64,000 nt of DNA from Sulfurovum sp. XGS-02 (GTDB taxonomy: Bacteria; Campylobacterota; Campylobacteria; Campylobacterales; Sulfurovaceae): assembly GCF_023213175.1 (NCBI RefSeq), contig NZ_CP093312.1, forward strand, positions 2,046,001 to 2,110,000. Reading direction: 5' to 3'. Shown piece by piece: positions 6,092-24,291 of the stretch; the stretch's first letter is position 1; the number at the start of each line of letters is the position of its first letter. The notes under the pieces are model-generated. The model worked only from the letters and a program-made list of their open reading frames with translations, was not told the DNA's origin and ran no database searches. A program made the position numbers and the translations under genes.

Positions 6092-6150
6092 GGTTTGTTT
6101 CCTTGAGAAATAAATTGTCCTCTTTGTCCATCAGACTTGGGATTGGACGA

Positions 6151-6183: not shown

Positions 6184-6191
6184 GAGTGTAA

Positions 6192-8116: not shown

Positions 8117-8142
8117 AGATCTCTCCATTTAACTTATATAAT

Positions 8143-9032: not shown

Positions 9033-9099
9033 AAAGAAGCCTTTTTTATCTCTATTAATCTTATATGTCAAAGTGCTTATTCAAAATTTATGGAGAAAT

Positions 9100-9130
9100 A
9101 GTATAAAAAATTGGTTTCATTTTGGTAACA
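9100..9130 (-). promoter_or_regulatory. Pho box and -10 of RR2
   Basis: Minus-strand half-sites TGTTACC (9124-9130) and TGAAACC (9113-9119), 11 bases apart. TATACT (9100-9105) follows after 7 bases, 2 bases closer than in the other promoters. Confidence 0.72.
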
Positions 9131-9158
9131 TTTTCTATCCTATGTCATCCTCTAATAT

Positions 9159-9191
9159 GGTTATCAATCTGTTATCCATTACCTCTACAAT
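9159..9191 (+). promoter_or_regulatory. Pho box and -10 of psiE
   Basis: Plus-strand half-sites GGTTATC (9159-9165) and TGTTATC (9170-9176) are 11 bases apart, followed after 9 bases by TACAAT (9186-9191). This is a second, oppositely oriented box in the same intergenic region as that of RR2. The hexamer ends only 5 bases before the psiE ATG. Confidence 0.72.
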
Positions 9192-9196
9192 TTGAT

Positions 9197-9562
9197 ATGC
9201 ATTTTACAAAAAAGAATTACGAATTACTCCTTGCTTCTATAATATTTTTACTGATCATAGCTTTACACTATCCGTTTTACAAAGCGATCATTCTGATGCT
9301 GGAGTTTATTGTGATCATAGAAGTGGTCAAAATGATTTCCGAGTTCATAACAAAGAAAAGATTACGAATGAGGTATGTGATCGATGTGTTTATTATCTTT
9401 TTGACACGGGATGTGATTATATTGACAACCAACCCAAACAAAGACCACCAAGAGATACTCTTTTTACTTTTTGTGATCTTTGTCTTTTTTCTCTTTAGAA
9501 TTTTAGCCGTACAGTTTTCACCTGCACTCTCAAAAAAGAAAAAAGCACAGACAAAATTTTAG
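9197..9562 (+). CDS. psiE: PsiE-like phosphate-starvation-inducible membrane protein
   Basis: 121 residues starting at MHFTKKNYEL; the frame is open further upstream to 9122 but that stretch covers the Pho box and promoter. There are four hydrophobic segments (about 12-28, 32-52, 68-80 and 94-112) and the PsiE-type loop RMRYVIDVFIIFLTRDVIIL. PsiE family proteins are inner-membrane proteins induced by phosphate starvation in Escherichia coli, function unknown. The gene overlaps the end of RR3 by four bases in the convergent orientation. With the -10 hexamer 5 bases upstream, the message should be leaderless. Confidence 0.75.
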   Translation: MHFTKKNYELLLASIIFLLIIALHYPFYKAIILMLEFIVIIEVVKMISEFITKKRLRMRYVIDVFIIFLTRDVIILTTNPNKDHQEILFLLFVIFVFFLFRILAVQFSPALSKKKKAQTKF

Positions 9563-10242
9563 AGTAATTTATATCCGACACCCCACACTGGAGCAAAATA
9601 CTCTTTCACTCCTTCAGGGTCGATCTTCTTTTTGAGTCTGTTCATCGCTACATTGATGGTTTTATCATGAAAGTTTGCACTGTCATCACCCCAAACTTCA
9701 TCACGTAAAAAATCTCTATCCAATGGCTGATGTGGATTCTTGACAAAAGTATGGAGCAGTTTAAATTCCAAGTTGGTCAACTCTATGCGCTTATCTTCTA
9801 TGAAAAGTTCACGTTTCTGCAGATCCAATATGAGGTCTCTGTATTTCACTTTATCCCCAGATGTAGCACCACTACGCTTCAATAGTGCGGCTATTCTTAA
9901 AAGAAGCTCTTTACTGCTGAAGGGCTTGGTCATATAGTCATCGCCTCCAGAGTGGAACCCTTCTTCCAAGTCACTCTCTTTGTCTCTTGCAGTCAGGAAC
10001 AGTACGGGGATATCATATCCCAGGTCCCGTATTTTAGAGACAAATTCACTGCCTTCTACACCAGGAAGGTTTCGATCGACGATCATAAGAGAAGGATTTT
10101 CCTCCTCTAAGAACTGTTCTACGTTTTCCGTAGAGAGGAACCCCGTAACAGCGTACCCTTCTTTTTCAAGATGATACTCTAGAAGTTCTAAAATATCTGC
10201 TTCATCTTCAATGACGATGATTTCTATATCTGTATTTTGCAT
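9559..10242 (-). CDS. OmpR/PhoB-type response regulator (RR3)
   Basis: 227 residues with receiver D56 (VDRNLPG), T84 and K106 and a C-terminal winged helix ending WGVGYKLL. It is a close paralog of RR1 (nearly the same first 55 residues), so one of the two is probably a duplicate of the other. A Pho box sits immediately upstream and there is no Shine-Dalgarno sequence; the -10 hexamer lies 5 bases before the ATG, so translation is probably leaderless. It may give positive feedback within the regulon. Which of the three regulators is the true PhoB cannot be decided from sequence. Confidence 0.88.
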   Translation of the reverse strand: MQNTDIEIIVIEDEADILELLEYHLEKEGYAVTGFLSTENVEQFLEEENPSLMIVDRNLPGVEGSEFVSKIRDLGYDIPVLFLTARDKESDLEEGFHSGGDDYMTKPFSSKELLLRIAALLKRSGATSGDKVKYRDLILDLQKRELFIEDKRIELTNLEFKLLHTFVKNPHQPLDRDFLRDEVWGDDSANFHDKTINVAMNRLKKKIDPEGVKEYFAPVWGVGYKLL

Positions 10243-10247
10243 GTTAT

Positions 10248-10280
10248 AGCATAGTATATCTTGATAACAATTTGATTACA
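10248..10280 (-). promoter_or_regulatory. Pho box and -10 of RR3
   Basis: Minus-strand half-sites TGTAATC (10274-10280) and TGTTATC (10263-10269), 11 bases apart. At the standard 9-base distance there is TATGCT (10248-10253); a better hexamer TATACT (10253-10258) is closer. Either choice leaves fewer than about five bases before the ATG. Confidence 0.72.
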
Positions 10281-10387
10281 AAAAATGAGCAAGAGAGAGG
10301 TTTTTCTAAGGAGAACGCAGGTATTTCTACCCACGTTAAAACGGATTATTTCTAAGATGAAAACTGATACTACACACCAAATGATGT

Positions 10388-11929
10388 TTAGCTCGCAACA
10401 CCTTTAAGTATGAAGAAAATGATAGCAGAAAGTACTGCTGCCGCCGGTACGGTAATCACCCATGCCGCCACGATCTTTTTCACCATACCACGCTTTACGT
10501 AATTCTCACGCAATGAACGCTTCAAGCTTTTTACTTTTTTCTTTTGCACCTTAGCCGCTTCAATCAATTCAACCTGTCTTTTATAATCCCCCGCTGCTTT
10601 CAGTTCTGCCAGTTCTGCTTTCAGCGCATTGTGTTTTTCTACTTCTGCATGAAGTTTCTCCTGCTTGACACTCATATCTTTACTGTCAAGCCACTCTCTA
10701 AGAAAACCTACACCAAATACTGCACCTACTGCAATATGCGTTGAAGAAACCGGTAGGCCAAGCTGAGAAGCGATAACCACTGTGATCGCTGCAGCCATCA
10801 TAATAGAAAAGGCTCTCATCTGATCGAGTTCAGTGATCTCAGACCCTACCGTTCTGATGAGTCTTGGTCCAAAGAGTGCAAGACCTACAGAGATACCCAC
10901 ACCGCCAACAACCATGACCCATAAAGGGATTGCTGCTTTTTTAGAAACAGCAAGTGTAGTCAGCGCATCATTGACCGCTGCCAAAGGACCTACAGCATTG
11001 GCAACGTCATTTGCGCCATGTGCAAAACTCAAAAGTGCCGCTGCAAAAATAAGAGGAATGGTAAAAAGCATATTGACCGCTTCTCTAGTATTATCCAGAC
11101 CCACCACTTTTTTTGCTACTCTAGGCTTCACAATCAAGAATGTGATCACCCCTCCAATCACACCTAAGATCAAGGCCACAGAAAAAGGTGGTTTCTTCGT
11201 TTGAGGCAAGAAACTGAACATATCGGTAATTGTCCCCCAGATATGTTTAAAACCTTTAAGCGTCAAATACGTGATAAATGCTGCTGACATGATAGCAACA
11301 AGTACAGGTACTACCTTTTTAGCTGCAGTTAACCTATCTGTTTTATATACTACCTGAGATTTTATAACATAAAGGAATGTCGCAGCGATCACTCCACCAA
11401 GGACAGGCGAGATTACCCATGAGGCAGCGATCTTACCCATCGTTCCCCAAGAAACAATAGCAAAACCACCTGCTGCTATACCACCTCCAAGCACACCACC
11501 TACAATAGAGTGTGTCGTCGATACCGGTGCCTTAAGCCATGTTGCAAGATTCAACCATAGCGCTGCAGCAAGCAGTGCCGCGGACATACCATAGACAAAA
11601 AGCATAGGGTCATTTCCAAAGGCATCTGGAGAGATGATCCCTTTTTTAATGGTTCCCACTACATCACCACCTGCGATAAGTGCACCACCCGCTTCAAAAA
11701 TAGATGCGATAAGGACAGCACCACCTATGGTCAATGCACCAGCACCCACTGCAGGTCCTACGTTATTGGCAACATCATTTGCACCGATGTTCATCGCCAT
11801 ATAGGCACCAAATACAGCTGCCAGTACTAAAAAGCCTCCGTGTGTTACCTGTCCCATAACGCTGTTTGCATAAAATGCTACGGCTACAGCAAAGCCCGCA
11901 CCCAGCATCATCTTTAATGTATTGTTCAT
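10388..11929 (-). CDS. PiT-family inorganic phosphate transporter
   Basis: 513 residues, ten or more membrane segments, with the two inverted PiT signatures GANDVANNVGPAVGAGALT (about 49-67) and GANDVANAVGPLAAV (about 305-319). A cytoplasmic charged insertion lies near 425-480, after the second signature. PiT proteins are ion-coupled (H+ or Na+) phosphate symporters, usually low affinity and often constitutive. Here the gene has its own Pho box with a -10 hexamer, so it appears to be induced by starvation with pst. It is not preceded by a PhoU-like (DUF47) partner gene. Confidence 0.93.
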   Translation of the reverse strand: MNNTLKMMLGAGFAVAVAFYANSVMGQVTHGGFLVLAAVFGAYMAMNIGANDVANNVGPAVGAGALTIGGAVLIASIFEAGGALIAGGDVVGTIKKGIISPDAFGNDPMLFVYGMSAALLAAALWLNLATWLKAPVSTTHSIVGGVLGGGIAAGGFAIVSWGTMGKIAASWVISPVLGGVIAATFLYVIKSQVVYKTDRLTAAKKVVPVLVAIMSAAFITYLTLKGFKHIWGTITDMFSFLPQTKKPPFSVALILGVIGGVITFLIVKPRVAKKVVGLDNTREAVNMLFTIPLIFAAALLSFAHGANDVANAVGPLAAVNDALTTLAVSKKAAIPLWVMVVGGVGISVGLALFGPRLIRTVGSEITELDQMRAFSIMMAAAITVVIASQLGLPVSSTHIAVGAVFGVGFLREWLDSKDMSVKQEKLHAEVEKHNALKAELAELKAAGDYKRQVELIEAAKVQKKKVKSLKRSLRENYVKRGMVKKIVAAWVITVPAAAVLSAIIFFILKGVAS

Positions 11930-11961
11930 CTACATTCCTTCATTTCTGTATTAATCGTGGA

Positions 11962-11994
11962 AGTATAGTCAAAAAGTATTACAATTTTGTTACC
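11962..11994 (-). promoter_or_regulatory. Pho box and -10 of the PiT gene
   Basis: Minus-strand half-sites GGTAACA (11988-11994) and TGTAATA (11977-11983), 11 bases apart, then 9 bases and TATACT (11962-11967). Overlapping it, on the other strand, TGTTACC and TGTAACC (11988-12005) form a second perfect 11-bp repeat, so the region is a cluster of half-sites. Confidence 0.75.
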
Positions 11995-12042
11995 AAAATG
12001 TAACCAAATGGAAATAAAAGAAAATTGGAAGTTGAAAGTGTC

Positions 12043-12067
12043 AAGATGGACAGAGTATGCCCATCTT
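12043..12067 (-). terminator. Hairpin after the porin gene
   Basis: AAGATGG / CCATCTT inverted repeat about 25-50 bases past the porin stop codon on the minus strand. It lacks a clear T-run, so it is a weak terminator call. Confidence 0.4.
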
Positions 12068-12091
12068 TAGGAATTTACATGATATTTTGGA

Positions 12092-13261
12092 CTAAAATGT
12101 AATAATTGCGTCTAACTGTACACGCTCGTAATCTGCATCTGCAGGATCGCTAACTTTGCTTCCATAGAGTGTATTGATGAAGTAAGTAGCGGCAAGATAT
12201 GTGTTTTTGCCAAATTTGTATTTTGTTCTAATCGCATGACCTTTAGCAGCCGTACCACCACCGAAGTTATCTGAGTCAGAGTGTGGACCAAACACTGCAT
12301 CTTCCTGGATATCAGTATACGAGTATTTTAGTTGCCAGTCACCAACATTTTTTGCTTTACCAAGTTGAAATGCCAAATCGTATCCAAAGTTATTGTCATC
12401 TGCAGCCGTGTTATATGCTACACCAGCAGCGATTGCAAATGGTTTGCCCAGTACATCTTTAAACTTGAGTTCTCCAAATCCTTCTACGATATGATAGTCA
12501 TTTGCATACACGTCACCTACGAAAGTGTTACCCATATCTTTACCATAAAGAGCTGTATTCCCTTTGATACCATCATAATAGTAGATACCTGCACCTAGAT
12601 TAAGCTTTGCACTCTCTAGCTTTGTTTTATGTACATATTGTGCGATAAAGAGGTTCACATCATCCTCAGCGGTAACATTTTCCGCATAACTTGGTTGGTT
12701 AATACCTGCAGTGATGATCTTTGTATCGTCTTGGTACTGATAGTTAACACCGTCTAGTGAAAGGTCGTTATCCCAAACAAGTTGTGATTTGATAGGTCTG
12801 TACATCATGTATGGTGATCTACCTATTTTCCAAATAGAGTTACCAGTTGTGTAATCAAGCGCTAAAGCATTGAATCTAAGTGACTGGAAAAAGTAGTCTG
12901 ACAGGGCTTCAGTATCCTTATTCGCCTCAACAAAAGTTTGGTTACCTGAAGTTGGGTTACCTTTACCACTTCTCATACCCACTTCAAATTGAAGGTGATC
13001 TGTAATATCAATATGTGCTCCTAGTCTTAAACGATATCGACCAAGATAAGCATTTTTTTCACTACCGTCATAATAGTCAGTCTCTTTACTCTCATATCTT
13101 AATCTCAAATCACCCTTAAAGTGAACTCTATCCATAAAGCTTTTTTCAGTTGTTCCAGTTGCGTCTTTCACTTCTTCTATGCGTTCAATTGGATGACTAA
13201 TGTCCGCTTCAGCCATTGCTACTGTCGCTAGTGCGGCCATAGATAGTACAATTTTTTTCAT
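12092..13261 (-). CDS. Outer-membrane porin, phosphate-regulated
   Basis: 389 residues with a Sec signal peptide (MKKIVLSMAALATVAMAEA), a short N-terminal helix region and then alternating beta strands up to a C-terminal QLDAIITF with terminal Phe, as expected for an outer-membrane beta barrel. It resembles the alginate/putative porin families of Campylobacterota. The promoter holds three to four Pho half-sites, so the pore probably admits phosphate or small phosphorylated compounds, in the way PhoE and OprP do in other groups; no sequence relation to those is claimed. Single gene, followed by a hairpin. Confidence 0.82.
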   Translation of the reverse strand: MKKIVLSMAALATVAMAEADISHPIERIEEVKDATGTTEKSFMDRVHFKGDLRLRYESKETDYYDGSEKNAYLGRYRLRLGAHIDITDHLQFEVGMRSGKGNPTSGNQTFVEANKDTEALSDYFFQSLRFNALALDYTTGNSIWKIGRSPYMMYRPIKSQLVWDNDLSLDGVNYQYQDDTKIITAGINQPSYAENVTAEDDVNLFIAQYVHKTKLESAKLNLGAGIYYYDGIKGNTALYGKDMGNTFVGDVYANDYHIVEGFGELKFKDVLGKPFAIAAGVAYNTAADDNNFGYDLAFQLGKAKNVGDWQLKYSYTDIQEDAVFGPHSDSDNFGGGTAAKGHAIRTKYKFGKNTYLAATYFINTLYGSKVSDPADADYERVQLDAIITF

Positions 13262-13349: not shown

Positions 13350-16300
13350 TTAGAATTTAGCAGATATTTTCAAGCTCAAAGTTCTTCCATTCTTGAATTT
13401 TCTTGTTATACCATCTCCTTGTCTCCAAACAACTTCTTCGTCTAATAGGTTCCCTGCTTTGATCCTCGTTTCAAAATCATATCCATAGTTGAATTTTTCT
13501 ATCCACACAAAATCCAAAAGTGTCGCAGGTACCTCATACTGATCTAACTCTTTGTTTGGTCCATCAATCACACCCACCTTACGAATACGCTCTGCCATAT
13601 GATTTAAATTCAGAAGAGCCGATCTATTGTCATTTTCATACCCAAAGGTAAAATTCACAACATATGGTGATAATCCTTGCAGATCTCTTGTATCCGATGT
13701 AAAAATTTCTTTTTGCTCTTCAGTTAAAGAGACTTCGGAATAATTATAAGAGAAATTACCCGAAAAATAATAGTTAAACCATTTCGGGTTGATAAAATCC
13801 AAGTTTTTTCTTCCATCAATTTCAAAACCATACAATGTTGCTGAATCAGTATTGTCAAAAGAATAAATAGGTAATGATGTAGATGGCCTCATTACATCTT
13901 CTATCGGTTTATCCATATACTTATAAAAAAGTCCCAGTTTCACATTTTCATTTTCTGAGAAAAAATAACTGTATTTTAGATCAAAATTATAAATAATTGT
14001 GTTAACAAGCTCAGGGTTTCCTACAATCGTAGCAACATCAAACGGATGAAAATACTCACCTTCAGTAAACTCTCTCATATCTGGCATGATATAAGTTTTT
14101 GATGCTGCCAGATCAAAAATATTTTTGTCATCATGTTTATACTTAATACTTAATGAGGGAAAATAATCATCAACTTTGAGTGTCTGGGGCACTAAGATAA
14201 CATTATTTCTTTGTGAAAAATCAGGGTTTGATTTATCCAATTTGAATTGATCTATCTTCTGCTCTAGATTTACATATCTAAGTCCCAATACCATTTCAAC
14301 ATCTTCGCTAGGTCTGCTCATCCATGAAATATAAGGACTGGTTTCATCTACATATCCATTAAAAGAATCCTCTGCCTTAAAAAGTGTGGCAATCTGAAAT
14401 AATCTATAATCATATGGATAATCAGGTATGACATAGTTACTATAAATTGTATCTATATCTGAGAATAGTTCACGATCGGTTACCGCTAGATTATTAGTCT
14501 TGTCAAGATAATACTTCCGCTGTCTAGAGACTCTCTCTTTAGATGAAATATTGATTCCATACTCAATGTACTCGTCAGGATTAAAAATTTCAACCTCATG
14601 TTTATTTTTAAGATACAAAGCATTCAATGTATCATCAGAGGTTACACGGTTTGCCAAATGGTTACTTTGAGTATTATCATTAAATGTGACATCCCCCTCT
14701 GTAATATAGATATACTGATAGTTATTTGGCTGATAGAATTCAGCCGTACTTCTTTGCAACCCAAAATTAAAATTAGAGTCCATATCAAAGAGCTTATAAT
14801 CAAAATCTCCACTAATTTGATCCACATTCATTTCTCTCTGTTCCCAGTTCAAATTATAATATGTCATATGCGAATAGTTTGACCCGATAATACCATCTGT
14901 AACCCTTGTGGTTTTTACAGCATTATTCGTATAGAGTTTTGTATACTTTAGTGTCAATACATCCAGGTAATTGTAACCAATGTTCAGCATACCGCCATGT
15001 GAAATGTCCATGGTGGTCTGATCTATGGTACCATATTTTGTAGCTTCAGGTATTTGATTTCCATCAGCATCATAGTCATACCCAAAGAACTCTTCAGGTC
15101 TATAGACCCTGTCCTGAGAATAAGAATAATTCCCATAAATTGTTAGATGATGGTCTTCATTGATATCAAAATTTTTAGCTCCTTCAACAGAACCCCCAAA
15201 GCCAGGCAACAATGTTGATTCATAGACGTTATAAAAACGGTTAATGTACATTCTAGTATACGCTGACAATTCTTCCGGGGTGAAGTCCCTTGTAGTAAAG
15301 GTAGGTGTTCTCTCACCTACTCTTACCTCAGTAGCATCTAAAATAGGTTGAGGAATACTTCTAAAACTATGGTCATATCCCGTCCAGTCGGAACCTGATC
15401 CAAGAGAGTCTACTGTTGCTTCCCCCGTATAGTTATTGAGCTTTCCTTCTAAAGATATTTTGATAAAGTCTTCATCAAACTTCTCTTTGGTTCTGATATC
15501 TATATACCCTCCACCAAAACTACTAGGGATATCAGCAGAAGCACTCTTTTGCACTTTCATGGAACCAATGACTGACGAAGGGAAAATATCTAAAGGAACC
15601 GTTCTCTTTAATGGATTAGGTGAAGGTAACGGTAATGAGTTTAGCTCTACATTTGAATATCGTTCCCCTAAACCTCTTACATAAATATTTCTACCATCCA
15701 CCAAAGTAACACCTGTCACTCTCTTAAGTGCTGCAGCTGCATCCGAGTCCCCTTTTTTGCTTAACTCTTCCGAACCAAGTATATTCGCAACTGCATTGAT
15801 ATTTTTTTCTTCAGCCATAACATCTGCGATACTACCTTCGATCTTTGGAGCAAGGACGACAAACTCTTCCAACTCCATACTCGCTGGGGTTAACTTTACT
15901 GTTCTTGAGGTGGTACCATCTTTTTTAACCACTATTCCTCCGATCGTCTGTGCACTATAGGCTGAATGCACGACAGAGATGCTCAACGTTTTTCCTGAGG
16001 GTACTTTGGCAGAAAAGCGGCCATTCACATCTGTCCTCACATCTACTGCCGTACCTCTAACAAAGACTCTAGCCCCAGAAATAGGTGTATTGCCCTCTGA
16101 AGAGAGTACCTGACCTCTAAGTGTTCCTTCTCCCGTGACTATTTCTTCTTTTCTCTCAACAGATGCTGCTACAGCAACAGGTATATCGATATCGATACTA
16201 TCTGCCCCAGTTTTAGAGAGTGTAGCTATCATTTCTGTATCTCTTCCCTCTTTGATAGAAACAGGTTTTTTAAAGTATCCCAGGTTTTCACCTGCCGCAT

Positions 16301-16526
16301 TTTTACCAAAGATTTCTATCTGGTGTCTACCCGCGATAAGCGCTATCTTAACAACACCATCCTTATCTGTCTTGAAAACCTTTTTACCATCCACCTTTAT
16401 TTCATTATTAGGTAAGGGTTTCCCCTCACTAAAAAGCAACACCGAAAGCGTACCCTCTTTTAATTCACTTGCTACTACTGTCAATGGTAGGATCATTAAA
16501 AGCAATAATTGCACTAATTTCTTCAT
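13350..16526 (-). CDS. TonB-dependent outer-membrane receptor with N-terminal Ig-like/carboxypeptidase-regulatory domains
   Basis: 1058 residues. A signal peptide (about 1-19) is followed by two beta-sandwich modules: 25-103 (LSVLLFSEGKPLPNNEIKV) and a carboxypeptidase-regulatory-like domain at 135-212 (LRGQVLSSEGNTPISGARV). A TonB box (ELEEFVVLAP, 218-227) leads into the plug (about 235-350, with VRGLGERYSNVELNSLPLP) and then the 22-strand barrel ending in Phe. It imports a bulky or scarce substrate across the outer membrane using proton-motive force. It begins immediately after the TPR gene stop with no gap and is the last gene of the operon starting at 21583, whose promoter is a Pho box. 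The substrate is therefore likely to be phosphorus-related; this is inference. Confidence 0.88.
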   Translation of the reverse strand: MKKLVQLLLLMILPLTVVASELKEGTLSVLLFSEGKPLPNNEIKVDGKKVFKTDKDGVVKIALIAGRHQIEIFGKNAAGENLGYFKKPVSIKEGRDTEMIATLSKTGADSIDIDIPVAVAASVERKEEIVTGEGTLRGQVLSSEGNTPISGARVFVRGTAVDVRTDVNGRFSAKVPSGKTLSISVVHSAYSAQTIGGIVVKKDGTTSRTVKLTPASMELEEFVVLAPKIEGSIADVMAEEKNINAVANILGSEELSKKGDSDAAAALKRVTGVTLVDGRNIYVRGLGERYSNVELNSLPLPSPNPLKRTVPLDIFPSSVIGSMKVQKSASADIPSSFGGGYIDIRTKEKFDEDFIKISLEGKLNNYTGEATVDSLGSGSDWTGYDHSFRSIPQPILDATEVRVGERTPTFTTRDFTPEELSAYTRMYINRFYNVYESTLLPGFGGSVEGAKNFDINEDHHLTIYGNYSYSQDRVYRPEEFFGYDYDADGNQIPEATKYGTIDQTTMDISHGGMLNIGYNYLDVLTLKYTKLYTNNAVKTTRVTDGIIGSNYSHMTYYNLNWEQREMNVDQISGDFDYKLFDMDSNFNFGLQRSTAEFYQPNNYQYIYITEGDVTFNDNTQSNHLANRVTSDDTLNALYLKNKHEVEIFNPDEYIEYGINISSKERVSRQRKYYLDKTNNLAVTDRELFSDIDTIYSNYVIPDYPYDYRLFQIATLFKAEDSFNGYVDETSPYISWMSRPSEDVEMVLGLRYVNLEQKIDQFKLDKSNPDFSQRNNVILVPQTLKVDDYFPSLSIKYKHDDKNIFDLAASKTYIMPDMREFTEGEYFHPFDVATIVGNPELVNTIIYNFDLKYSYFFSENENVKLGLFYKYMDKPIEDVMRPSTSLPIYSFDNTDSATLYGFEIDGRKNLDFINPKWFNYYFSGNFSYNYSEVSLTEEQKEIFTSDTRDLQGLSPYVVNFTFGYENDNRSALLNLNHMAERIRKVGVIDGPNKELDQYEVPATLLDFVWIEKFNYGYDFETRIKAGNLLDEEVVWRQGDGITRKFKNGRTLSLKISAKF

Positions 16527-17810
16527 CTATATACACTCCAGACTGTTACTTCTACATTTTTCAATATTTTTACGGATCACCGTTGATTTAGAGAAGAGTT
16601 CATCATCTTCAATCTTTTTAAGATGTGCTTCTGCACTATCATAATCTTTGGCCATATAGTATGAATATGCTAATGCATATCGCATATTGTCATTTTGCAA
16701 AAGACCATATCTATCCAAAGCATCTTTAAGTCCAATGATCTTCTCAAACTCACCTTTCCCGATAAAGATCGCAACTTTCTGTTTGGTCTTTTCTGCTTTA
16801 TCCGTCATCATTGAGTTGAGATACAATGCATGTGCAAGTTCACCGTTTCTTCTGTACATCTCTGCGGCTTCTTTAAGATAATTCGCATCATACAAAGAAC
16901 CCTTCTCAAATAGATCGGCAGTGATATGAGGCATATCTTTTTGGTTATAGTAATGTCCAAGCAGTATGTGTACTTTGGCCGAAGAGGGAAACTTCAACTT
17001 TGCCTCTTCAAGCACTTTGATCGCTTCTTCTGCCTCGCCACCGCTTTGAAGCATCTGTCCTAGAGAGATATACTCCTGTGCATTTGCCGGTAGCTTCTTC
17101 ATATAGGCTTTTGCTGCAGCGATCGAAGCTTGATAGAGCTTTAACTCCGCAAAATAGTAAAACTTCTGTTTCAACAACATTGCATCTTCAGGGAAAAGCT
17201 TTGCCCCTCTACTCAATGCATCGATCGCAGCACCTTTTTGATCAGCCTTCCAGTAACACTCTGCTCTAAGCGTAAACAGGGAGGCACGGGCACGTCCTTT
17301 TTCTCCTGCTGCATCCAGTGCATGTACCGCTTTGATATACTGTTCAGCCCTATAATATGCCTGAGACAGATAGATATAGATCTCTTCTATCTGATCTTTT
17401 CTCAATTTCTCCGGATCAAATGCAGGTTTTTTTACTACAGATGCTTCTTCTTTCTTCTTTGAAGAGAAAGCACTAAATAGATACTCTCTTTTAGCCTTCT
17501 CTTCCACCGGTGGGTCATACACCTTTTGTTGAGTTGAAACAATCGCCTTTCTGAAGGCATGAATGGAGGAGTCGTAATTCTCATTTTTCAAAAAGATCAA
17601 TCCTCTCATATTATAGTATTTATCCCACCCGATCTTTGTATGGGAATCTTTTGCCATCTGTAGCTCTTCAAGAGCCTTGTCGTACTTTCCATCATAATAC
17701 ATAATGGTCGCGATCTCCATATGATCGATCGTCTGCTCTTCAGGCTCTTGTGCCTGAAGTGTCATAACAGAGAAAAGAACAAATGATAATGTAATAATTT
17801 TTTTCAACAT
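16527..17810 (-). CDS. Exported tetratricopeptide-repeat protein of the TonB module
   Basis: 427 residues, a signal peptide (about 1-20, LFSVMTLQAQ) and then about eight to ten helical TPR-like repeats through most of the protein (for example around 35-70, 130-160, 240-300). It is periplasmic by prediction. A TPR protein is a regular neighbour of TonB2-type exbB-exbD-tonB operons in marine Gammaproteobacteria; its biochemical job is not settled and may be to bridge TonB and the receptor or peptidoglycan. It lies 9 bases after tonB and directly abuts the receptor gene, so it is firmly in this operon. Confidence 0.82.
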   Translation of the reverse strand: MLKKIITLSFVLFSVMTLQAQEPEEQTIDHMEIATIMYYDGKYDKALEELQMAKDSHTKIGWDKYYNMRGLIFLKNENYDSSIHAFRKAIVSTQQKVYDPPVEEKAKREYLFSAFSSKKKEEASVVKKPAFDPEKLRKDQIEEIYIYLSQAYYRAEQYIKAVHALDAAGEKGRARASLFTLRAECYWKADQKGAAIDALSRGAKLFPEDAMLLKQKFYYFAELKLYQASIAAAKAYMKKLPANAQEYISLGQMLQSGGEAEEAIKVLEEAKLKFPSSAKVHILLGHYYNQKDMPHITADLFEKGSLYDANYLKEAAEMYRRNGELAHALYLNSMMTDKAEKTKQKVAIFIGKGEFEKIIGLKDALDRYGLLQNDNMRYALAYSYYMAKDYDSAEAHLKKIEDDELFSKSTVIRKNIEKCRSNSLECI

Positions 17811-17819
17811 CTTTTAACC

Positions 17820-18458
17820 TTAATTAAAATCAAAGCGGACTTTCTGTTTCGCCCACACTTTGACAGGATTGCCTTTATATTTTGCCGGAGCAAAACGCCA
17901 GTTTCTTATACCTCTCAGTGCTGCCTGGTCAAATACACCTGCAGGACTGGAAGCGATCACTTTTGCCAGTTCCACACTTCCGTCTTTACCGATAAGCAGG
18001 TTCACAACCACATACCCTTTGATATGCTTTTTAGCCGCTGCAGAAGGATACTCCAATGGTGCACGTGAAATCACTCTTGGTTTACTGTCAACCGTGCCTT
18101 CACTCATCGCTGCATCTGCTGCCATATCACCTAAAAGGCTACTGCCGTCGCCTATGATATCCCCTGTAGCAAACTCAGGGATATTCATAGCAATCCCGCC
18201 AAGCATCGCCCCAAGATCCGGCAACGGTGCTTTTGGCTGTGCTTTAGGTTTTGGTTTTGGTTTTGGCTTTGGCTTCTCCATTTTTGGCGGCTGTTTTGCC
18301 ATCTTCATATAACGCATAGGGTCCTTGACTTTTTTCTCTTTCTTCTCGACCTTTGCATTAAATGACACTACAAGCACCATCATCAAAAAAGCACCGATTC
18401 CCATTGACCATAAGGCATATGATTTGGCACGATCTCTATTAAACTGTTTATTGGCCAT
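17820..18458 (-). CDS. tonB: Energy transducer TonB (TonB2-like, short)
   Basis: 212 residues. One N-terminal membrane anchor (about 15-33), a short Pro-Lys spacer (KPKPKPKPKAQPKAP, about 62-77) and a C-terminal TonB domain (about 128-212) containing YPSAAAKKHIKGYVVVNLLI and ending VWAKQKVRFDFN. The short periplasmic spacer is the feature of TonB2/TtpC-type systems rather than E. coli TonB1. It transmits inner-membrane energy to the receptor's TonB box. It is 6 bases after exbD in the Pho-controlled operon. Confidence 0.92.
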   Translation of the reverse strand: MANKQFNRDRAKSYALWSMGIGAFLMMVLVVSFNAKVEKKEKKVKDPMRYMKMAKQPPKMEKPKPKPKPKPKAQPKAPLPDLGAMLGGIAMNIPEFATGDIIGDGSSLLGDMAADAAMSEGTVDSKPRVISRAPLEYPSAAAKKHIKGYVVVNLLIGKDGSVELAKVIASSPAGVFDQAALRGIRNWRFAPAKYKGNPVKVWAKQKVRFDFN

Positions 18459-18464
18459 AATAGG

Positions 18465-18869
18465 TTATCCCATCTCTTTTGATGTGGATACAGCTACATC
18501 TTTTGCCCCTGACATACGACACTCATCCACTACATCGATCAATGTCTCTACAGGGATCGTATCATCAGAGATGACCAGTACAGACTTTTCTGTCGATGTA
18601 CGTAATAGATCTCTTAACTTGCTCTGGATCGCCCATAGTTGTACCGGTTGGTTATCGATATAAACCTGAGAGGTATTGTCAATATACACACGTACCACTT
18701 TCGCATCTGACTTACTGGCACTCGCGGCAGACGGACGATCAAGGTCCAGTTTCATATCTTTGACAAACGTAGTCGTTACCATAAAAAAGATCAATAGGAT
18801 AAAAACCATATCGATCAATGGTGATACGTCTACATTGTCTACTTCTTGTTTCTTTGGTCTAATTCTCAT
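18465..18869 (-). CDS. exbD: Biopolymer transport protein ExbD
   Basis: 134 residues with a single N-terminal membrane helix (about 18-38) that carries the essential Asp in VSPLIDMVFILLIFFMV, and a periplasmic C-terminal domain. It forms the proton-driven stator with ExbB. The gene overlaps the end of exbB by four bases and is followed closely by tonB. Length and key Asp are normal. Confidence 0.94.
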   Translation of the reverse strand: MRIRPKKQEVDNVDVSPLIDMVFILLIFFMVTTTFVKDMKLDLDRPSAASASKSDAKVVRVYIDNTSQVYIDNQPVQLWAIQSKLRDLLRTSTEKSVLVISDDTIPVETLIDVVDECRMSGAKDVAVSTSKEMG

Positions 18870-19501
18870 TCTGCATCCTTCGTGGATATAATATCTGTGA
18901 TCTGTTCAAATTCAAGTTCATAACGTTCTGCCTTTCTGTCAAGCACACGTCCTATAATCAATCCAGGGACGGCAACAACCAATCCAAGCTCAGTGGTAAA
19001 AAGAGCTTTAGAGATACCACCTGAAATACTGGCTCCCTGGGCAAACATAGAACTGCTTTGCAGTGCATCAAATGTTTCGATCATTCCCATCACTGTTCCA
19101 AGTAAACCTACCAGTGGAGCAAGTACAACGATCGTCTTGATCATAATTCTATAGCTGTTTACATCGCTATAGTACGGCAGTAATACCCCACTAATATGTT
19201 TTCTCACATTGGCTCCGATCGCTTTGGCCTCTTGCGCTGCTTGCAATGCATCGGATACAGCATAATCAAGCATACCCCTCATAGCCTGTGCTTCACCTCT
19301 TTTTTCATGCTTATTGATCAAACGGCGGACATTCCCTTTAGTCCCTCTATTGAGAATAAAATAACGATATCCCAGACCATACCAAAGAAAAAAGTTGAGT
19401 ACAAAAAGTACCCACATGACCACTCCTCCGGTATTCATAAGCTCAACAAATCTGCCGATTAACTCAAATGGCGAAAGCATCTCAGCCTCTATACTTCTCA
19501 T
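18866..19501 (-). CDS. exbB: ExbB/MotA/TolQ-type proton channel protein (ExbB2-like)
   Basis: 211 residues with three membrane segments: about 27-48, 118-145 and 160-185. The conserved MotA/TolQ/ExbB segment reads APLVGLLGTVMGMIETFDAL, followed by GGISKALFTTELGLVVAVPG. It forms the pentameric channel that drives TonB. It overlaps the upstream TtpC gene by 20 bases and exbD by 4, so translation is tightly coupled. Two ExbB-family proteins in tandem (TtpC and this one) are the hallmark of the Vibrio TonB2 system. Confidence 0.92.
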   Translation of the reverse strand: MRSIEAEMLSPFELIGRFVELMNTGGVVMWVLFVLNFFLWYGLGYRYFILNRGTKGNVRRLINKHEKRGEAQAMRGMLDYAVSDALQAAQEAKAIGANVRKHISGVLLPYYSDVNSYRIMIKTIVVLAPLVGLLGTVMGMIETFDALQSSSMFAQGASISGGISKALFTTELGLVVAVPGLIIGRVLDRKAERYELEFEQITDIISTKDAE

Positions 19502-20816
19502 AAAGGTTTACTATGTGCAATGCTTTTTGCTCCATAGAATCCTTAATACTCTGTGCCCAGCCAGAAAGGAGGTTTCCGATCAACAAAAGCGGAATAGCTA
19601 CGATAAGACCTTGCATGGTTGTCACAAGCGCTGCAGAGATACCTCCTGAAAGCAATTTAGGGTCACCTGTACCAAACTCTGTGATCACTTCAAATGTTTC
19701 GATCATTCCTGTAACGGTACCCAACAGTCCCATCAGCGGAGCAACCGCTGCTATAACCAGTACAAAACTACCAAATTTGTCGATCTGTGTACTTTCATTG
19801 AGGATATTTTCCATAATGACATCTTCAACATGCTCTCTATTTTTATCAATATTTCTAAGTGTAGACTTGATCACTCTTGCTGTAGATCCTTCATATCCTT
19901 TGATCGCATCCAGTGCTTCATCCTTTTTGCCACTCTCAACTTTTTCTACCACGATCTGAGTAATGTCTTGCACATTCGTACTTGCTCTCATCAGGTTGAT
20001 CACTCTTAATCCTAAAAGAATCAAACCAAAGAGCCCAAGTGCAAAAATGATATACCCGATGACACCACCATCTTCCATCGTATCTACAAAGCTCTTCTCC
20101 GTCACATAATCTACCTCTTTATCAAGGTTTTCATAGGCAAAGATATCTATCGTTTCAGTCTTTTCTTTAGCAAACATCGCTTTAGCATCGTCAGATGAAC
20201 CCACAGCATTCCATAGTTTATAGGCACCATCACCTGCAGGTGCAAGTGCCCCGGCAGCTTCTTTAGCGATACCATATGCAGCGATATTCCCTACTTTTAC
20301 GATATCACCTTCCACTTTTTTCCCATCCGGAAGATAGAATTCACCTTTTTCATTTCTCAAAGAAGAGAGTTCACTATAGAGTTTTATAGAGCTGCCAAAT
20401 GCCTGCTTGATCTTTTCTACATTATTTGTTTTATTATCATCTGAAACTTTCACACCATAGGGTTCAAGTGCCAAACGCGCCTGATTGACCACATTACCGG
20501 TAAGCCCTCCATTGTCCTCTTTCTCTGCCAGTATCTTTGTAAGTTTTTCCAGTTTTTCACTACTTACTTTTGTCTTTTCAGATACTTCAAGCAGTTGTGC
20601 CTGAAGTACCTCTACTCTCTCTTTGGACGCTTGAATATCATTTGCATGCTGTACCTGGTCTGTTTCAAGTCTCTTTTCAAGTTCCGCTTTTTGCGCCTTT
20701 AGAAATGCATACTCTTTTTGGTATGCTCTCTCAAGTTCACCTGCTTGTGTAGCTGTCGAAAGTGATACAAATGCTACAAACACGAAAAATAGTTTAGTAA
20801 TAGATAATGCTTTCAT
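19482..20816 (-). CDS. ttpC: TtpC-like protein: periplasmic coiled coil fused to an ExbB domain
   Basis: 444 residues. A signal-like N-terminus (1-25) is followed by a long coiled coil (about 28-100), a periplasmic domain (110-240), one membrane helix (about 250-272), and a C-terminal ExbB-like channel domain (about 300-440) with PLMGLLGTVTGMIETFEVI and GGISAALVTTMQGLIVAIP. This is the layout of TtpC, the fourth component that TonB2 of Vibrio needs for receptor energisation. Its stop is downstream of the exbB start (20-base overlap), and its start codon abuts the end of the DUF3450 gene (ATG at 20816). Gene symbol is by analogy. Confidence 0.85.
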   Translation of the reverse strand: MKALSITKLFFVFVAFVSLSTATQAGELERAYQKEYAFLKAQKAELEKRLETDQVQHANDIQASKERVEVLQAQLLEVSEKTKVSSEKLEKLTKILAEKEDNGGLTGNVVNQARLALEPYGVKVSDDNKTNNVEKIKQAFGSSIKLYSELSSLRNEKGEFYLPDGKKVEGDIVKVGNIAAYGIAKEAAGALAPAGDGAYKLWNAVGSSDDAKAMFAKEKTETIDIFAYENLDKEVDYVTEKSFVDTMEDGGVIGYIIFALGLFGLILLGLRVINLMRASTNVQDITQIVVEKVESGKKDEALDAIKGYEGSTARVIKSTLRNIDKNREHVEDVIMENILNESTQIDKFGSFVLVIAAVAPLMGLLGTVTGMIETFEVITEFGTGDPKLLSGGISAALVTTMQGLIVAIPLLLIGNLLSGWAQSIKDSMEQKALHIVNLYEKYRG

Positions 20817-21583
20817 TAGTTAACCCCTCTGAGTAATAGTGCGTTGGGCAAGGTAAAGTACCCTGTACGGATCTGTTTTTGCAATGCATCAAAAAGACCA
20901 ATGATCTGATCACGTTCAGTACTATCTTTTGTGACTTCATAACTGTACGTATCTCCATCTTGTTTCACATACCCGATCCTCTCATCCGGTGTTGCAAAGA
21001 ACATCATCACTGAGCCCACTTTGGCGATCTTTGCCATAGTGGCTTTTCCATCAAGTATGATCTCCTGTTTGAACTGCCCGATCTCTTTTGTCAGACGCAA
21101 TGCATCATCGTAGCTCGCCCAGGTCAAGGCAAGTGCCTTCTCTTGTGAAATATTTCCATTTTTAAGATCATCTTTGATCTGATGAAGTGCAGCTACTCTC
21201 TCTTCTACTTTGAAAGGGATGCCCCTTTTGATCTCTTTTTCAAGGGCCATAAGTGCTTCATTGACAACAGGCTTAAGGTCTACCGTAGCACTTCCCATCG
21301 TTTCTAGCTTTTTTTCTGTTTTTTCAATATTTTGTTGTGTAAGCTTCAATGAAGTTTCTTGTCTATTGATCTGTGCTTCATTATCAGAGGTTTGAAGTGC
21401 GTAGGACTTCATTTGTGCTTTGTATGCTTCTTTATTATCATCGATGTTTGTATAGAGAGATTCTACCTGTGATCTGAGCTCCATGATCGATTGAACCATG
21501 CTGTCATCTTTTGCTGCATGAAGCATTGTACTTGAAATAGCTAGAGCTGCTGATAAAGAGATCAGTCTTGTCATTTTTCCCAT
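20816..21583 (-). CDS. DUF3450 periplasmic coiled-coil protein, first gene of the TonB operon
   Basis: 255 residues: signal peptide (about 1-24, cleavage after LHAA), a long coiled coil (about 28-105) and a globular C-terminal half with the family's GIPFKVEERVAALHQIKDDL and ALALTWASYDDALRLTKEI stretches. DUF3450 proteins regularly precede ExbB-ExbB-ExbD-TonB-TPR operons in marine bacteria; function unknown. Its stop overlaps the ttpC start by one base. A Pho box lies about 50-85 bases upstream, making this the promoter-proximal gene of a seven-gene operon that ends with the receptor at 13350. Confidence 0.85.
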   Translation of the reverse strand: MGKMTRLISLSAALAISSTMLHAAKDDSMVQSIMELRSQVESLYTNIDDNKEAYKAQMKSYALQTSDNEAQINRQETSLKLTQQNIEKTEKKLETMGSATVDLKPVVNEALMALEKEIKRGIPFKVEERVAALHQIKDDLKNGNISQEKALALTWASYDDALRLTKEIGQFKQEIILDGKATMAKIAKVGSVMMFFATPDERIGYVKQDGDTYSYEVTKDSTERDQIIGLFDALQKQIRTGYFTLPNALLLRGVN

Positions 21584-21634
21584 TTTTTTTCCTTATGTAT
21601 CATTAAAAAATCGGTATGGATTTTAGTTTGTGGA

Positions 21635-21667
21635 ATAGTGCCTAAAATTCATAACAGAATGGAAACA
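21635..21667 (-). promoter_or_regulatory. Pho box and -10 of the DUF3450-ttpC-exbBD-tonB-TPR-receptor operon
   Basis: Minus-strand half-sites TGTTTCC (21661-21667) and TGTTATG (21650-21656), 11 bases apart, then 9 bases and CACTAT (21635-21640). The same CACTAT hexamer at the same distance occurs in the promoter at 24017. Confidence 0.72.
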
Positions 21668-21710
21668 AAACTTCCATGAGGAGGTGATGTATGTTTTGTT
21701 ATGTATAAGC

Positions 21711-21737
21711 TGTGAGACAGGGATTCCTTGTCTCACA
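21711..21737 (-). terminator. Hairpin after the beta-helix lipoprotein gene
   Basis: A perfect 9-bp inverted repeat, TGTGAGACA / TGTCTCACA, with a 9-base loop lies just past the stop codon at 21745 on the minus strand. No strong T-run follows. Confidence 0.55.
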
Positions 21738-21744
21738 TCAAGTT

Positions 21745-23967
21745 TTACTTATATGTAATTGTATTTCCTGTTGCTCCACCGTCATCAAATGCAACTTCAA
21801 GTGCTGCTGCTGATGTACCAGTAAAGTCTAAGCCAGTCCCTGTAGTCATTGCGACATTTTCAAATGAAGTAGTTGCCTCATTAATAAGATCGTTAGAGTG
21901 AAGAGCACCATGAGGTTCGATCTGCCCGCCATTGTGAATGATCGTACCATTTTTAAAGTGTCCGCCTATCCCAGCATTTTTAAAGTAGATTCCGCCCTCT
22001 TTAGCCTGAGTTGCACCCGTTGTGATCGTAAATCCATCAAATGTTGCTGCAGTATCTCCTGACATTTCAATACCTGCATTCCCTGTTGTTGTATTAATGA
22101 CAAGATTTTTTACCGTTCCAGAGAATCCATCATCGATGTCAAAGTAGTCATCTGTACAGTGTGTAACCGTAACATTGGTAAGGTTCACCGTACCACCCCA
22201 GATCTCGATACCGTCATCATCAGAATAGTCAATTGTAATGTCTTCAACAATAGTACCTGAACCAACACCTACAAAACTCAGGCCATTGATCTCTTTATCT
22301 TGAGCCATGGTAATACCTGAATTGAGAATCTTCACATTTCTCAAGATACCTGAACTGTCTGCCAGGTCCTGCCCAGATACGATAGCACCATTCGCATCTT
22401 TACCGCCACCAGCAGCAAAAAGGCTGTTTACCTCGTATGCATTCACTTGGTCATTTCCTGCATTTCCTATAAGTGTCAATCCACCCCATAGTCCAACTTC
22501 CTGTGCTGCAGTATTTTGTGATGTAAAGACAATAGGTTTGTCCACTGTACCAAGTGCATATATTTTAGCCCCTTTATCAACGATCATATATGAAGTGGCA
22601 TCTCCTGTTCCAGGCAGTCCAACAATAGTTGTTCCTTCCTGTATTCTCAATTCTGCTCCAGAAGTAACCACTGCAAGACCATCAAGTTCCCATATTTTGT
22701 CTGAAGTCAAGACTGTACATCCTGTCAAATCACCTGTAAGTGTGACTGAAGTCGGAACAGTACATACAACATTACCCGAACCACCTTCAAATGCCGTCTG
22801 AAGTGCAGAAGCTGAAGGACCAGTATAGATCAGACCCTCTGGCGCTGTAATAGCGACATTTTCAAATGAAGTAGTTGCCTCATTAATAAGATCGTTAGAG
22901 TGAAGAGCACCATGAGGTTCGATCTGCCCGCCATTGTGAATGATCGTACCATTTTTAAAGTGTCCGCCTATCCCAGCATTTTTAAAGTAGATTCCGCCCT
23001 CTTTAGCCTGAGTTGCACCCGTTGTGATCGTAAATCCATCAAATGTTGCTGCAGTATCTCCTGACATTTCAATACCTGCATTCCCTGTTGTTGTATTAAT
23101 GACAAGATTTTTTACCGTTCCAGAGAATCCATCATCGATGTCAAAGTAGTCATCTGTACAGTGTGTAACCGTAACATTGGTAAGGTTCACCGTACCACCC
23201 CAGATCTCGATACCGTCATCATCAGAATAGTCAATTGTAATGTCTTCAACAATAGTACCTGAACCAACACCTACAAAACTCAGGCCATTGATCTCTTTAT
23301 CTTGGGCCATTGTAATACCTGAGTTAAGGATATACACATTTCTCAAAATACCCGAACTGTCTGACAGGTCCTGACCAGGTACGATAGCACCATTCGCATC
23401 TTTACCGCCACCAGCAGCAAAAAGGCTGTTTACCTCGTATGCATTCACTTGGTCATTTCCTGCATTTCCTATAAGTGTCAATCCACCCCACTGACCCACA
23501 TCCAAATTTGTAGGATCTTCTACACGTTGCATAGAAGTAAAGATAATTGGTTTATCCGCAGTACCATCTGCAATTATTTCAGCATCTTTATCCACAATCA
23601 TGTAAGACGTTGCATCTCCTGTTCCTGCTAAACCTGCAATCACTGTTCCTGGCTCTATAGTAAGTGTTACACCTGGTTTTACAACTGCCAATCCATCAAG
23701 TACCCAAAGTGTATCATTGGTTAATGTCATAGAGGTACTAATGTCACCGGCAAGCGGTTTTTGAGGTAAAAATTTAGCAGCTGCTAAAATAGTGTCGAAA
23801 CTCGTAGGTGTTGTATTAGTAGTTGTGCTGCCAGTTGTACCACCTGTAGCAAGAGTATCACCAGTGATGGTGACAGTAGAATCACCATATGTCACAGTTG
23901 TATCCCCACAACCATTCATTATTGCTATAGCAACTGCTGACAGTGCAATTGTTTTCAAGTTTGTCAT
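21745..23967 (-). CDS. Tandem-duplicated beta-helix lipoprotein, Pho-regulated
   Basis: 740 residues from the ATG at 23967, chosen because AAGGAAAG precedes it; an ATG six codons upstream lacks a site. The signal peptide ends in a lipobox (IMNGC, Cys near 20). The rest is two long homologous halves (about residues 70-400 and 410-740), each with the stretch TIEPGTVIAG-like/GTGDATSYMIVDK, WGGLTLIGNAGNDQVNAYEVN, then strand-turn repeats (IDYSDDDGIEIWGG, HCTDDYFDIDDGFSG) that fit a right-handed parallel beta helix rich in Asp. Such folds bind polysaccharides or calcium. The gene has its own three-site Pho box. It probably sits on the outer membrane and may hand substrate to the receptor at 13350; that is inference. 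Confidence 0.75.
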   Translation of the reverse strand: MTNLKTIALSAVAIAIMNGCGDTTVTYGDSTVTITGDTLATGGTTGSTTTNTTPTSFDTILAAAKFLPQKPLAGDISTSMTLTNDTLWVLDGLAVVKPGVTLTIEPGTVIAGLAGTGDATSYMIVDKDAEIIADGTADKPIIFTSMQRVEDPTNLDVGQWGGLTLIGNAGNDQVNAYEVNSLFAAGGGKDANGAIVPGQDLSDSSGILRNVYILNSGITMAQDKEINGLSFVGVGSGTIVEDITIDYSDDDGIEIWGGTVNLTNVTVTHCTDDYFDIDDGFSGTVKNLVINTTTGNAGIEMSGDTAATFDGFTITTGATQAKEGGIYFKNAGIGGHFKNGTIIHNGGQIEPHGALHSNDLINEATTSFENVAITAPEGLIYTGPSASALQTAFEGGSGNVVCTVPTSVTLTGDLTGCTVLTSDKIWELDGLAVVTSGAELRIQEGTTIVGLPGTGDATSYMIVDKGAKIYALGTVDKPIVFTSQNTAAQEVGLWGGLTLIGNAGNDQVNAYEVNSLFAAGGGKDANGAIVSGQDLADSSGILRNVKILNSGITMAQDKEINGLSFVGVGSGTIVEDITIDYSDDDGIEIWGGTVNLTNVTVTHCTDDYFDIDDGFSGTVKNLVINTTTGNAGIEMSGDTAATFDGFTITTGATQAKEGGIYFKNAGIGGHFKNGTIIHNGGQIEPHGALHSNDLINEATTSFENVAMTTGTGLDFTGTSAAALEVAFDDGGATGNTITYK
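21851..22302. repeat. Near-perfect direct repeat, copy 1
   Basis: About 450 bases that match 22853-23304 base for base as far as I can read, offset 1002 bases (334 codons, in frame). Beyond 22302 the copies diverge by scattered substitutions and then more widely. Confidence 0.9.
22853..23304. repeat. Near-perfect direct repeat, copy 2
   Basis: Second copy of the 450-base repeat within the beta-helix lipoprotein gene. The homologous protein region is longer (about 330 residues per half) but only this core is identical at DNA level, which suggests recent duplication or gene conversion. Confidence 0.9.
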
Positions 23968-24016
23968 TTTACTTTCCTTAAACATAATTTAAACCAACCT
24001 TGGTTTTGTTTGCAGA

Positions 24017-24060
24017 ATAGTGACGAAAAGTGGAAACATAGTGGAAACATCTTGGTAACA
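24017..24060 (-). promoter_or_regulatory. Three-site Pho box and -10 of the beta-helix lipoprotein gene
   Basis: Minus-strand half-sites TGTTACC (24054-24060), TGTTTCC (24043-24049) and TGTTTCC (24032-24038), each 11 bases apart, then 9 bases and CACTAT (24017-24022). Confidence 0.82.
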
Positions 24061-24258
24061 TTTATGTTATCAAATGGTTATTTTATGTTTGAAAAGAGAA
24101 ATTTCGTGATATATGGAATAAGGTTTCTTCTATTAAAAGAAGTGAAGGAAAGAGAGGTAAGCCTCAATATATTGTAAATCAATCAAGCTATAACGTATGA
24201 TGCCGGGGAATCAATATTAAACTTGACGCCTTTCCATAAAAAACAGATATTTTCCTTA
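24061..24258. other. Intergenic region between divergent Pho promoters
   Basis: About 200 AT-rich bases. I see small inverted repeats (CTTCTATTAAAAGAAG near 24127 and GAGGTAAGCCTC near 24155) but no gene of credible length or RNA family that I recognise. Confidence 0.4.
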
Positions 24259-24291
24259 TGTTACCAATTTGTTATAAGTATAATATAGGAT
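24259..24291 (+). promoter_or_regulatory. Pho box and -10 of the 41-residue gene
   Basis: Plus-strand half-sites TGTTACC (24259-24265) and TGTTATA (24270-24276), 11 bases apart, then 9 bases and TAGGAT (24286-24291). A TATAAT also occurs at 24279-24284. Confidence 0.7.

Follow-up and report, generated by a model that had tools for sequence, protein, structure and literature searches.

The stretch of DNA analysed here (the window) comprises 64,000 nucleotides of Sulfurovum sp. XGS-02 and corresponds to bases 2,046,001 to 2,110,000 of a one-contig genome of 2.19 Mb. An eight-gene unit on its minus strand is best explained as a phosphate-starvation, self-powered outer-membrane system that probably imports a phosphorus compound. 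The case for a Pho-regulated, self-powered outer-membrane system is built on Pho boxes, conserved synteny, the constant pairing of a lipoprotein with a TonB-dependent receptor and an energiser with the layout of the Vibrio TonB2 and TonB3 systems. What the sequences themselves show is the set of genes and its synteny, the Pho boxes, the family relationships, the structure of the clades and the invariant residues. The locus joins two known kinds of element, a lipoprotein-receptor pair of the type represented by ElpS of Caulobacter and FI/FII of Flavobacterium and a TtpC-type energiser, and it is real and larger than was first noted.

Gene content and regulation of the eight-gene unit

The unit lies at the end of a Pho island that occupies window positions 1 to 24,000, with nearly everything on the minus strand. 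Seven of its genes form an operon (13350-21583, minus strand) in which neighbours overlap or are separated by gaps of no more than 9 bp. The gene order is DUF3450, TtpC-like, ExbB, ExbD, TonB, tetratricopeptide repeat (TPR) protein and TonB-dependent receptor, and a Pfam search of the operon matched DUF3450, MotA_ExbB (twice), ExbD, TonB_C, TPRs, CarboxypepD_reg and Plug. A first-pass annotation of this DNA had listed these seven genes correctly as a tight operon. It had overlooked the upstream lipoprotein gene (21745-23985), whose product is the constant partner of the receptor and which belongs to the system as its eighth gene.

The lipoprotein (746 amino acids, minus strand) has a lipobox-type N terminus, with Cys26 invariant in an alignment of homologues, and was modelled as two tandem right-handed beta-helix domains (mean predicted local distance difference test score, 80.7). 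It matched no Pfam family and, at the sequence level, no PDB entry. The best Foldseek matches were beta-helix proteins, namely capsule lyases, PL6 alginate lyases and polygalacturonase-type proteins. The template modelling (TM) scores of these matches were only 0.1 to 0.2, and the fold match therefore indicates a beta-helix and nothing about the substrate. A profile of the lipoprotein matched loci in Xanthomonas, Hyphomonas, Brevundimonas and Bacteroidota (E values of 1e-53 to 1e-61), among them the gene that precedes the receptor in Hyphomonas (L119) and, in Xanthomonas (L140), the gene ahead of both the receptor and secretin-type secretion genes, with a GspD secretin following. On the basis of its lipoprotein signal and beta-helix homology, the protein is assigned to the ElpS/FI-FII family. 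The kinship with ElpS is drawn from these Hyphomonas and Xanthomonas matches and from the link to ElpS made in the Flavobacterium paper of Lidbury and co-workers, who regard FI/FII and ElpS as homologous (PMC8115612), rather than from the ElpS sequence itself.

Seven carboxylates of the first beta-helix (E231, D256, D257, E260, D278, D279 and D282; codons of residues 231 to 282 at 23140-23295, minus strand) were conserved at 98 to 100% in 82 to 83 lipoprotein homologues. Their spacing of 22 to 26 residues is consistent with successive coils of the beta-helix, and the cluster may bind calcium or be catalytic. The lipoprotein gene also contains a recent internal duplication, and beta-helix copy number varies between loci, with three consecutive genes in one (L070, 158-4900) and a 1,356-codon version in Alteromonas (L155, 5189-9259).

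The receptor (1,058 amino acids; 13350-16526, minus strand) consists of an extra N-terminal beta-rich region, CarboxypepD_reg, plug and barrel. Two N-terminal beta domains had been described in the first-pass annotation, and both were present ahead of the barrel in an AlphaFold model (strands 24 to 114 and 133 to 212), in which the plug was modelled at low confidence. A candidate TonB box precedes the plug (ELEEFVVLAP, codons 218 to 227; 15846-15875, minus strand). Residues E218, E221, F222, V223, V224, L225 and P227 were invariant in the receptors of ten relatives, and the nearly invariant EEFVVLAP may act as the TonB box. The closest named relatives are from Sulfurovum metagenome-assembled genomes (MAGs; 67 to 70% identity). 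Phylogenetic analysis placed 89 receptors of this type in one clade, separate from siderophore-type receptors (Shimodaira-Hasegawa support, 0.949); the comparators were receptors of the siderophore type together with four others from the same genome, with no named B12 receptor included. Clustering with siderophore or B12 receptors had been named at the outset as a finding that would overturn the phosphorus interpretation, and the interpretation survived this comparison. No siderophore or BtuB family was among the NCBIfam matches of the receptor, while the SusC model matched residues 135 to 272 only, far below its cut-off. A PDB sequence search gave a single match to an N-terminal domain, and Foldseek returned generic TonB-receptor matches that were uninformative on substrate.

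The remaining six genes, all on the minus strand, encode a DUF3450 protein resembling TtpB (20816-21583; 255 amino acids; PF11932, E = 1e-24), a TtpC-like ExbB/TolQ homologue with a long N-terminal part (19482-20816; 444 amino acids; MotA_ExbB at residues 312 to 429), ExbB (18866-19501; MotA_ExbB), ExbD (18465-18869; PF02472), TonB (17820-18458; 212 amino acids; TonB_C, E = 7e-22) and a TtpD-like TPR protein (16527-17810; 427 amino acids; TPR families). The genome holds three TonB_C genes, of which the operon tonB is one. The order TtpB-TtpC-ExbB-ExbD-TonB-TtpD is that of TtpC-containing TonB systems and was also found in Salinivibrio; the proposal of a dedicated TtpC-type energiser was thus borne out, with six components in the TonB2/TonB3 layout.

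A tree of TtpC, ExbB and ExbD from 47 loci, a sample biased by the choice of loci through the receptor, split the window clade from a clade of Vibrio, Arcobacter-like and Alteromonadales modules that contains TonB2 (support, 100). The window-type clade consisted of Campylobacterota and of scattered gammaproteobacterial, deltaproteobacterial and planctomycete loci. Alteromonadales clusters with the same receptor family had energisers that fell within the TonB2 clade. By its position in the tree, the window energiser is a sister-type module, presumably working like the TonB2 system, and not a TonB2 member. The tree is most simply read as showing that the lipoprotein-receptor pair was combined with a TtpC-type motor on two or more occasions.

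A loose search of the whole genome with an IUPAC Pho-box pattern was uninformative (136 matches versus 148 for the reversed pattern), and a trained matrix was therefore used instead. This matrix describes the 11-bp repeat TGTWACC; its training set was the six remaining Pho promoters of the island, with the lipoprotein and DUF3450 promoters held out. The lipoprotein gene is preceded by tandem Pho boxes of 11-bp repeats (24040-24072, minus strand) with scores of 17.2 and 16.0, which were reached by none of 5,000 shuffles. The Pho box previously claimed for the operon (21647-21668, minus strand) is real but weak, its score of 11.4 being reached in 32 of 5,000 promoter shuffles and equalled or beaten at 17 of approximately 128,000 window positions. 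Campylobacterota relatives were scored with the same matrix against the 95th percentile of 222 control genes, and this cut-off was exceeded by 8 of 18 promoters of the lipoprotein gene and by 10 of 19 promoters of the DUF3450 gene. There was no such rise for operon-internal genes (TtpC, 0/20; TPR, 0/20; receptor, 1/20). Scoring of other phyla with an E. coli-type Pho box placed 22 of 56 lipoprotein genes, 7 of 12 DUF3450 genes and none of 19 TtpC genes above the 95th percentile. By these scores, Pho-type boxes recur, at a conserved position, before the lipoprotein and DUF3450 genes and not inside the operon. Phosphate-starvation control of the lipoprotein is predicted from these boxes.

Iron regulation through a Fur box had been set as a second challenge to the phosphate interpretation. 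The best Fur match at the locus was 11/19, which is chance level, leaving Pho control standing. Where TtpC operons adjoin iron genes or genes of the siderophore type, by comparison, the region upstream of DUF3450 gave matches of 13 to 15 of 19, and the region before the receptors of those modules gave up to 16. A hairpin 3' of the lipoprotein gene (21711-21737, minus strand; RNA fold of -15.4 kcal/mol, z of -3.9) is possibly an attenuator or a terminator; it has no clear T-run and was not listed by a consensus terminator scan.

Distribution and genomic surroundings

The same operon, a search for which had been proposed in the first-pass annotation, was found near Pho genes in other Campylobacterota. 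The energiser-receptor block was syntenic in all nine relatives checked, with a PhoB-type regulator adjoining it in seven and a pst operon in three. The lipoprotein gene was beside the block in eight relatives, on the opposite side of the receptor in G060; the ninth (G196) is represented by a contig of 9.7 kb, which stops at this point. A genome-wide scan with the receptor alignment, which favours close relatives, gave 587 candidates, and the best 80 of these loci were examined. They spanned about ten phyla according to record titles, which may err for MAGs: Campylobacterota, Gammaproteobacteria and Alphaproteobacteria, Desulfobacterota, Poribacteria, Planctomycetota, Myxococcota, Acidobacteriota, Gemmatimonadota, Bacteroidota and Verrucomicrobiota. 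The lipoprotein gene neighboured the receptor in 46 of the 47 loci with wide flanks, and pst genes were present in 12 of the best 80. An Alteromonas macleodii replicon (pBGP9) carries a set of phoB, phoR, lipoprotein, receptor and energiser genes, and a Pseudoalteromonas replicon carries the same set without phoB and phoR.

A less biased check than the receptor-chosen loci was provided by 298 Campylobacterota genomes, in which DUF3450 matches formed two score groups. The 85- to 109-bit type was present in ten genomes, exactly those ten with the receptor, and the 232- to 257-bit type in eight, among them G060, which carries both. The receptor was absent from the six other sampled members of the window's genus, and this patchiness suggests horizontal transfer or frequent loss. 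G060 has a second, high-scoring DUF3450-TtpC module (L149, G060:C13:98000-117999, 1663-13109) beside genes for a phytase (PF02333), a TonB-dependent receptor and a PhoX-like protein; this may be a further TonB system devoted to phosphorus. Type II secretion or pseudopilin-like genes were detected near the receptor operon in G295 (L028/L029) and G177 (L024), an echo of the arrangement in Caulobacter and Xanthomonas.

The rest of the island consists, in order, of a PhoB-type regulator gene, phoU, pstB, pstA, pstC and pstS (943-6091, minus strand, with Pho boxes before pstS and pstC), a fused acyltransferase/acetyltransferase gene, two further PhoB-type regulator genes, psiE on the plus strand, a PHO4-family phosphate transporter gene (10388-11929, minus strand; Pfam assignment, with a Pho box) and a Porin_5 porin gene (12092-13261, minus strand; Pfam assignment, with its own tandem Pho boxes at 13294, 13305 and 13316), followed by the eight-gene unit. 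Among open reading frames of at least 100 codons, no histidine kinase gene was seen in window positions 943 to 10242, which hold the three OmpR/PhoB-type response regulators. The fused gene (6192-7907, minus strand) encodes an acyltransferase joined to a GNAT acetyltransferase (PF19576 and PF13444), a layout that we take to be that of the bifunctional ornithine-lipid synthase OlsF. Its location inside the island suggests the production of phosphorus-free membrane lipids during starvation. A Pho-box-like site at 8155-8176 (minus strand; score, 14.3) precedes a 73-amino-acid gene and this OlsF-like gene, and another is immediately upstream of the psiE-family gene (PF06146; 9158-9559, plus strand). 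A further site at 24258-24279 (plus strand; score, 14.4) has no obvious plus-strand gene behind it.

Candidate function and alternative explanations

A PhoX-like protein was encoded in all ten receptor genomes versus 61 of the 298 Campylobacterota genomes overall, and a 5'-nucleotidase domain in nine of the ten; PhoA was absent from these ten genomes. This phosphatase content fits organic phosphorus as the substrate, as a correlation. A PhoX-like enzyme was considered as a fixed partner of the system and rejected: no convincing Pho box precedes its gene in the window's genome, and the co-occurrence therefore remains a correlation among related genomes. Four loci (L158, L165, L167 and L168) contain PhoX-like lipoprotein genes flanked by another lipoprotein-type gene, of approximately 570 to 670 amino acids, and these gene pairs perhaps resemble the PhoX/MauG-like pair of Flavobacterium.

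Under the favoured explanation of phosphorus import, a PhoB-type regulator would turn on two adjoining units, the ElpS-family surface lipoprotein and the seven-gene operon. Anchored in the outer membrane, the lipoprotein would use the carboxylate ladder of its beta-helix to bind or trim a phosphorus-containing substrate. The receptor would then import the ligand, with the TtpB-TtpC-ExbB-ExbD-TonB-TtpD complex delivering proton-motive force through the TonB box. PhoX-like or UshA-like enzymes in the periplasm could strip the compound to phosphate for uptake by Pst or the PHO4-family transporter. Import as opposed to export, the surface location, the substrate class and every transport step are what we infer here.

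Several observations weigh against phosphorus import. The operon has the weakest Pho box in the island, and a clear Pho box was present before only 4 of 11 PhoX-like genes, that of the window's genome not among them. The energiser is not adjacent in some members (L080, Shewanella and Alphaproteobacteria). Caulobacter Cc0171, the receptor encoded next to ElpS, was reported to be expressed alike in rich and poor medium (PMC2996285), and TonB-dependent receptors of the same domain layout can serve secretion as well (PMC6434023).

The TonB machinery is known mostly for the uptake of iron, B12 and glycans. If the favoured explanation is correct, a Pho-regulated receptor with its own motor, conserved in several phyla, would extend active outer-membrane import to phosphorus compounds, and a function would be indicated for two unexplained starvation proteins, Caulobacter ElpS and Flavobacterium FI. 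Given how compact the locus is and that the carboxylate cluster is invariant, the role of ElpS-family proteins can be tested directly in laboratory strains. A bolder version, which we consider less likely than not, is that the pair constitutes a pan-bacterial path for phosphorus through the outer membrane that has so far gone unrecognised, that the lipoprotein represents a new class of metal-dependent hydrolase or lyase of phosphorus polymers with the Glu/Asp ladder as its active site, and that several lineages, apparently more than once, added their own TtpC-type motor to produce a complete self-powered phosphorus-scavenging machine.

The foremost rival, though an unlikely one, is that during starvation the receptor helps the lipoprotein to cross or dock at the outer membrane, where the lipoprotein would mobilise phosphorus outside the cell. 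The near-constant, one-to-one neighbourhood of the two genes would fit such a role, but would equally be produced by an import pair of the SusC/SusD kind. A precedent exists in the Myxococcus receptor Oar, which has the same CarboxypepD_reg-plug-barrel layout and a linked Ton system and is needed for secretion of the PopC protease (PMC6434023). ElpS reaches the Caulobacter surface by an unknown route independent of the type II secretion system; however, its production was intact after deletion of cc0171 (PMC2996285). Passage of a folded beta-helix of this size through a receptor barrel would also be unusual.

We consider it improbable that the beta-helix acts as a lyase or hydrolase on polysaccharides and that the system imports sugars or phosphorylated glycans that phosphate-starved cells free from cell walls or from extracellular polymers. 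The identity of the best fold matches is in keeping with this, as is the identical structural guess of Lidbury and co-workers for FI to FIII (PMC8115612), but the TM scores were low and no recurrent carbohydrate-active gene was present in the flanking gene clusters examined. Glycan feeding also seems less likely in view of a host range that takes in Campylobacterota of autotrophic type. A sensory role, in which receptor and lipoprotein signal phosphorus status to PhoB-type regulators, could account for the frequent adjacency of a regulator gene (7/9 relatives) but is very unlikely, as the receptor lacks an STN signalling domain, no sigma/anti-sigma pair lies beside it and ElpS production survives the loss of Cc0171 (PMC2996285). 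An ordinary iron or B12 uptake operon located beside Pho genes by chance is scarcely credible: although Vibrio takes up iron with this six-gene energiser (PMC6957404), which also lies beside siderophore-type receptors in other Campylobacterota, the locus has Pho boxes in place of a Fur box, and both its receptor and its energiser fall in clades apart from the iron-type ones.

Comparison with known systems

The initial statement that no transport system of this exact make-up had been described was too strong, since the lipoprotein-receptor pair is known from Caulobacter (PMC2996285) and Flavobacterium (PMC8115612) and the six-gene energiser from Vibrio vulnificus (PMC6957404). We found no description of pair and energiser joined in one Pho-regulated locus. 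In Caulobacter, ElpS (Cc0170) is a surface lipoprotein that is produced only in phosphate starvation and is not itself a phosphatase, and Xanthomonas and Hyphomonas are among the genera shown to carry the pair (PMC2996285). The likeness to the window therefore lies in a phosphate-starvation outer-membrane lipoprotein adjoining a TonB-dependent receptor; the Caulobacter pair differs in its location beside type II secretion genes and in a receptor reported as constitutive, and no dedicated energiser is described for it.

PUSIII and PUSIV of Flavobacterium johnsoniae combine the FI/FII lipoproteins with TonB-dependent transporters. Low phosphate induces them, which low nitrogen or low iron does not; among the exoproteins made at low phosphate FI is the most abundant, and FII is encoded in the phoBR cluster (PMC8115612). 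These systems share with the window a low-phosphate lipoprotein of the beta-helix type beside a receptor with CarboxypepD_reg, in one case within a phoBR cluster, but have no described TtpC-type energiser and contain other hydrolases in their clusters. The SusCD/PusCD systems of Bacteroidota likewise pair a CarboxypepD_reg receptor with a surface lipoprotein and are in some cases induced by low phosphate; their lipoprotein is of the SusD type, whereas the window partner is a modelled beta-helix of no Pfam family. Oar differs from the window system in its secretion role, the absence of a phosphate link and the absence of a beta-helix lipoprotein.

The TonB2 operon of V. vulnificus (ttpB2-ttpC2-exbB2-exbD2-tonB2-ttpD2) is controlled by Fur and serves siderophore uptake, and its TtpB and TtpD are both essential for iron transport (PMC6957404). 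It has the same six components in the same order as the window, with closely similar lengths of TtpB2 (DUF3450; 255 versus 255 amino acids) and TtpD2 (TPR; 425 versus 427 amino acids), but differs in its Fur control, in having no receptor gene in the operon and in the clade of its TtpC-ExbB-ExbD proteins. No Vibrio receptor matches were found in the plasmid collection, which excludes the V. vulnificus chromosome bearing TonB3. The TonB3 system combines the six-gene energiser with its own receptor gene and is not iron-regulated but is reported to be controlled by Lrp and CRP (PMC6957404); it is like the window in carrying a receptor gene within the operon and unlike it in this mode of control.

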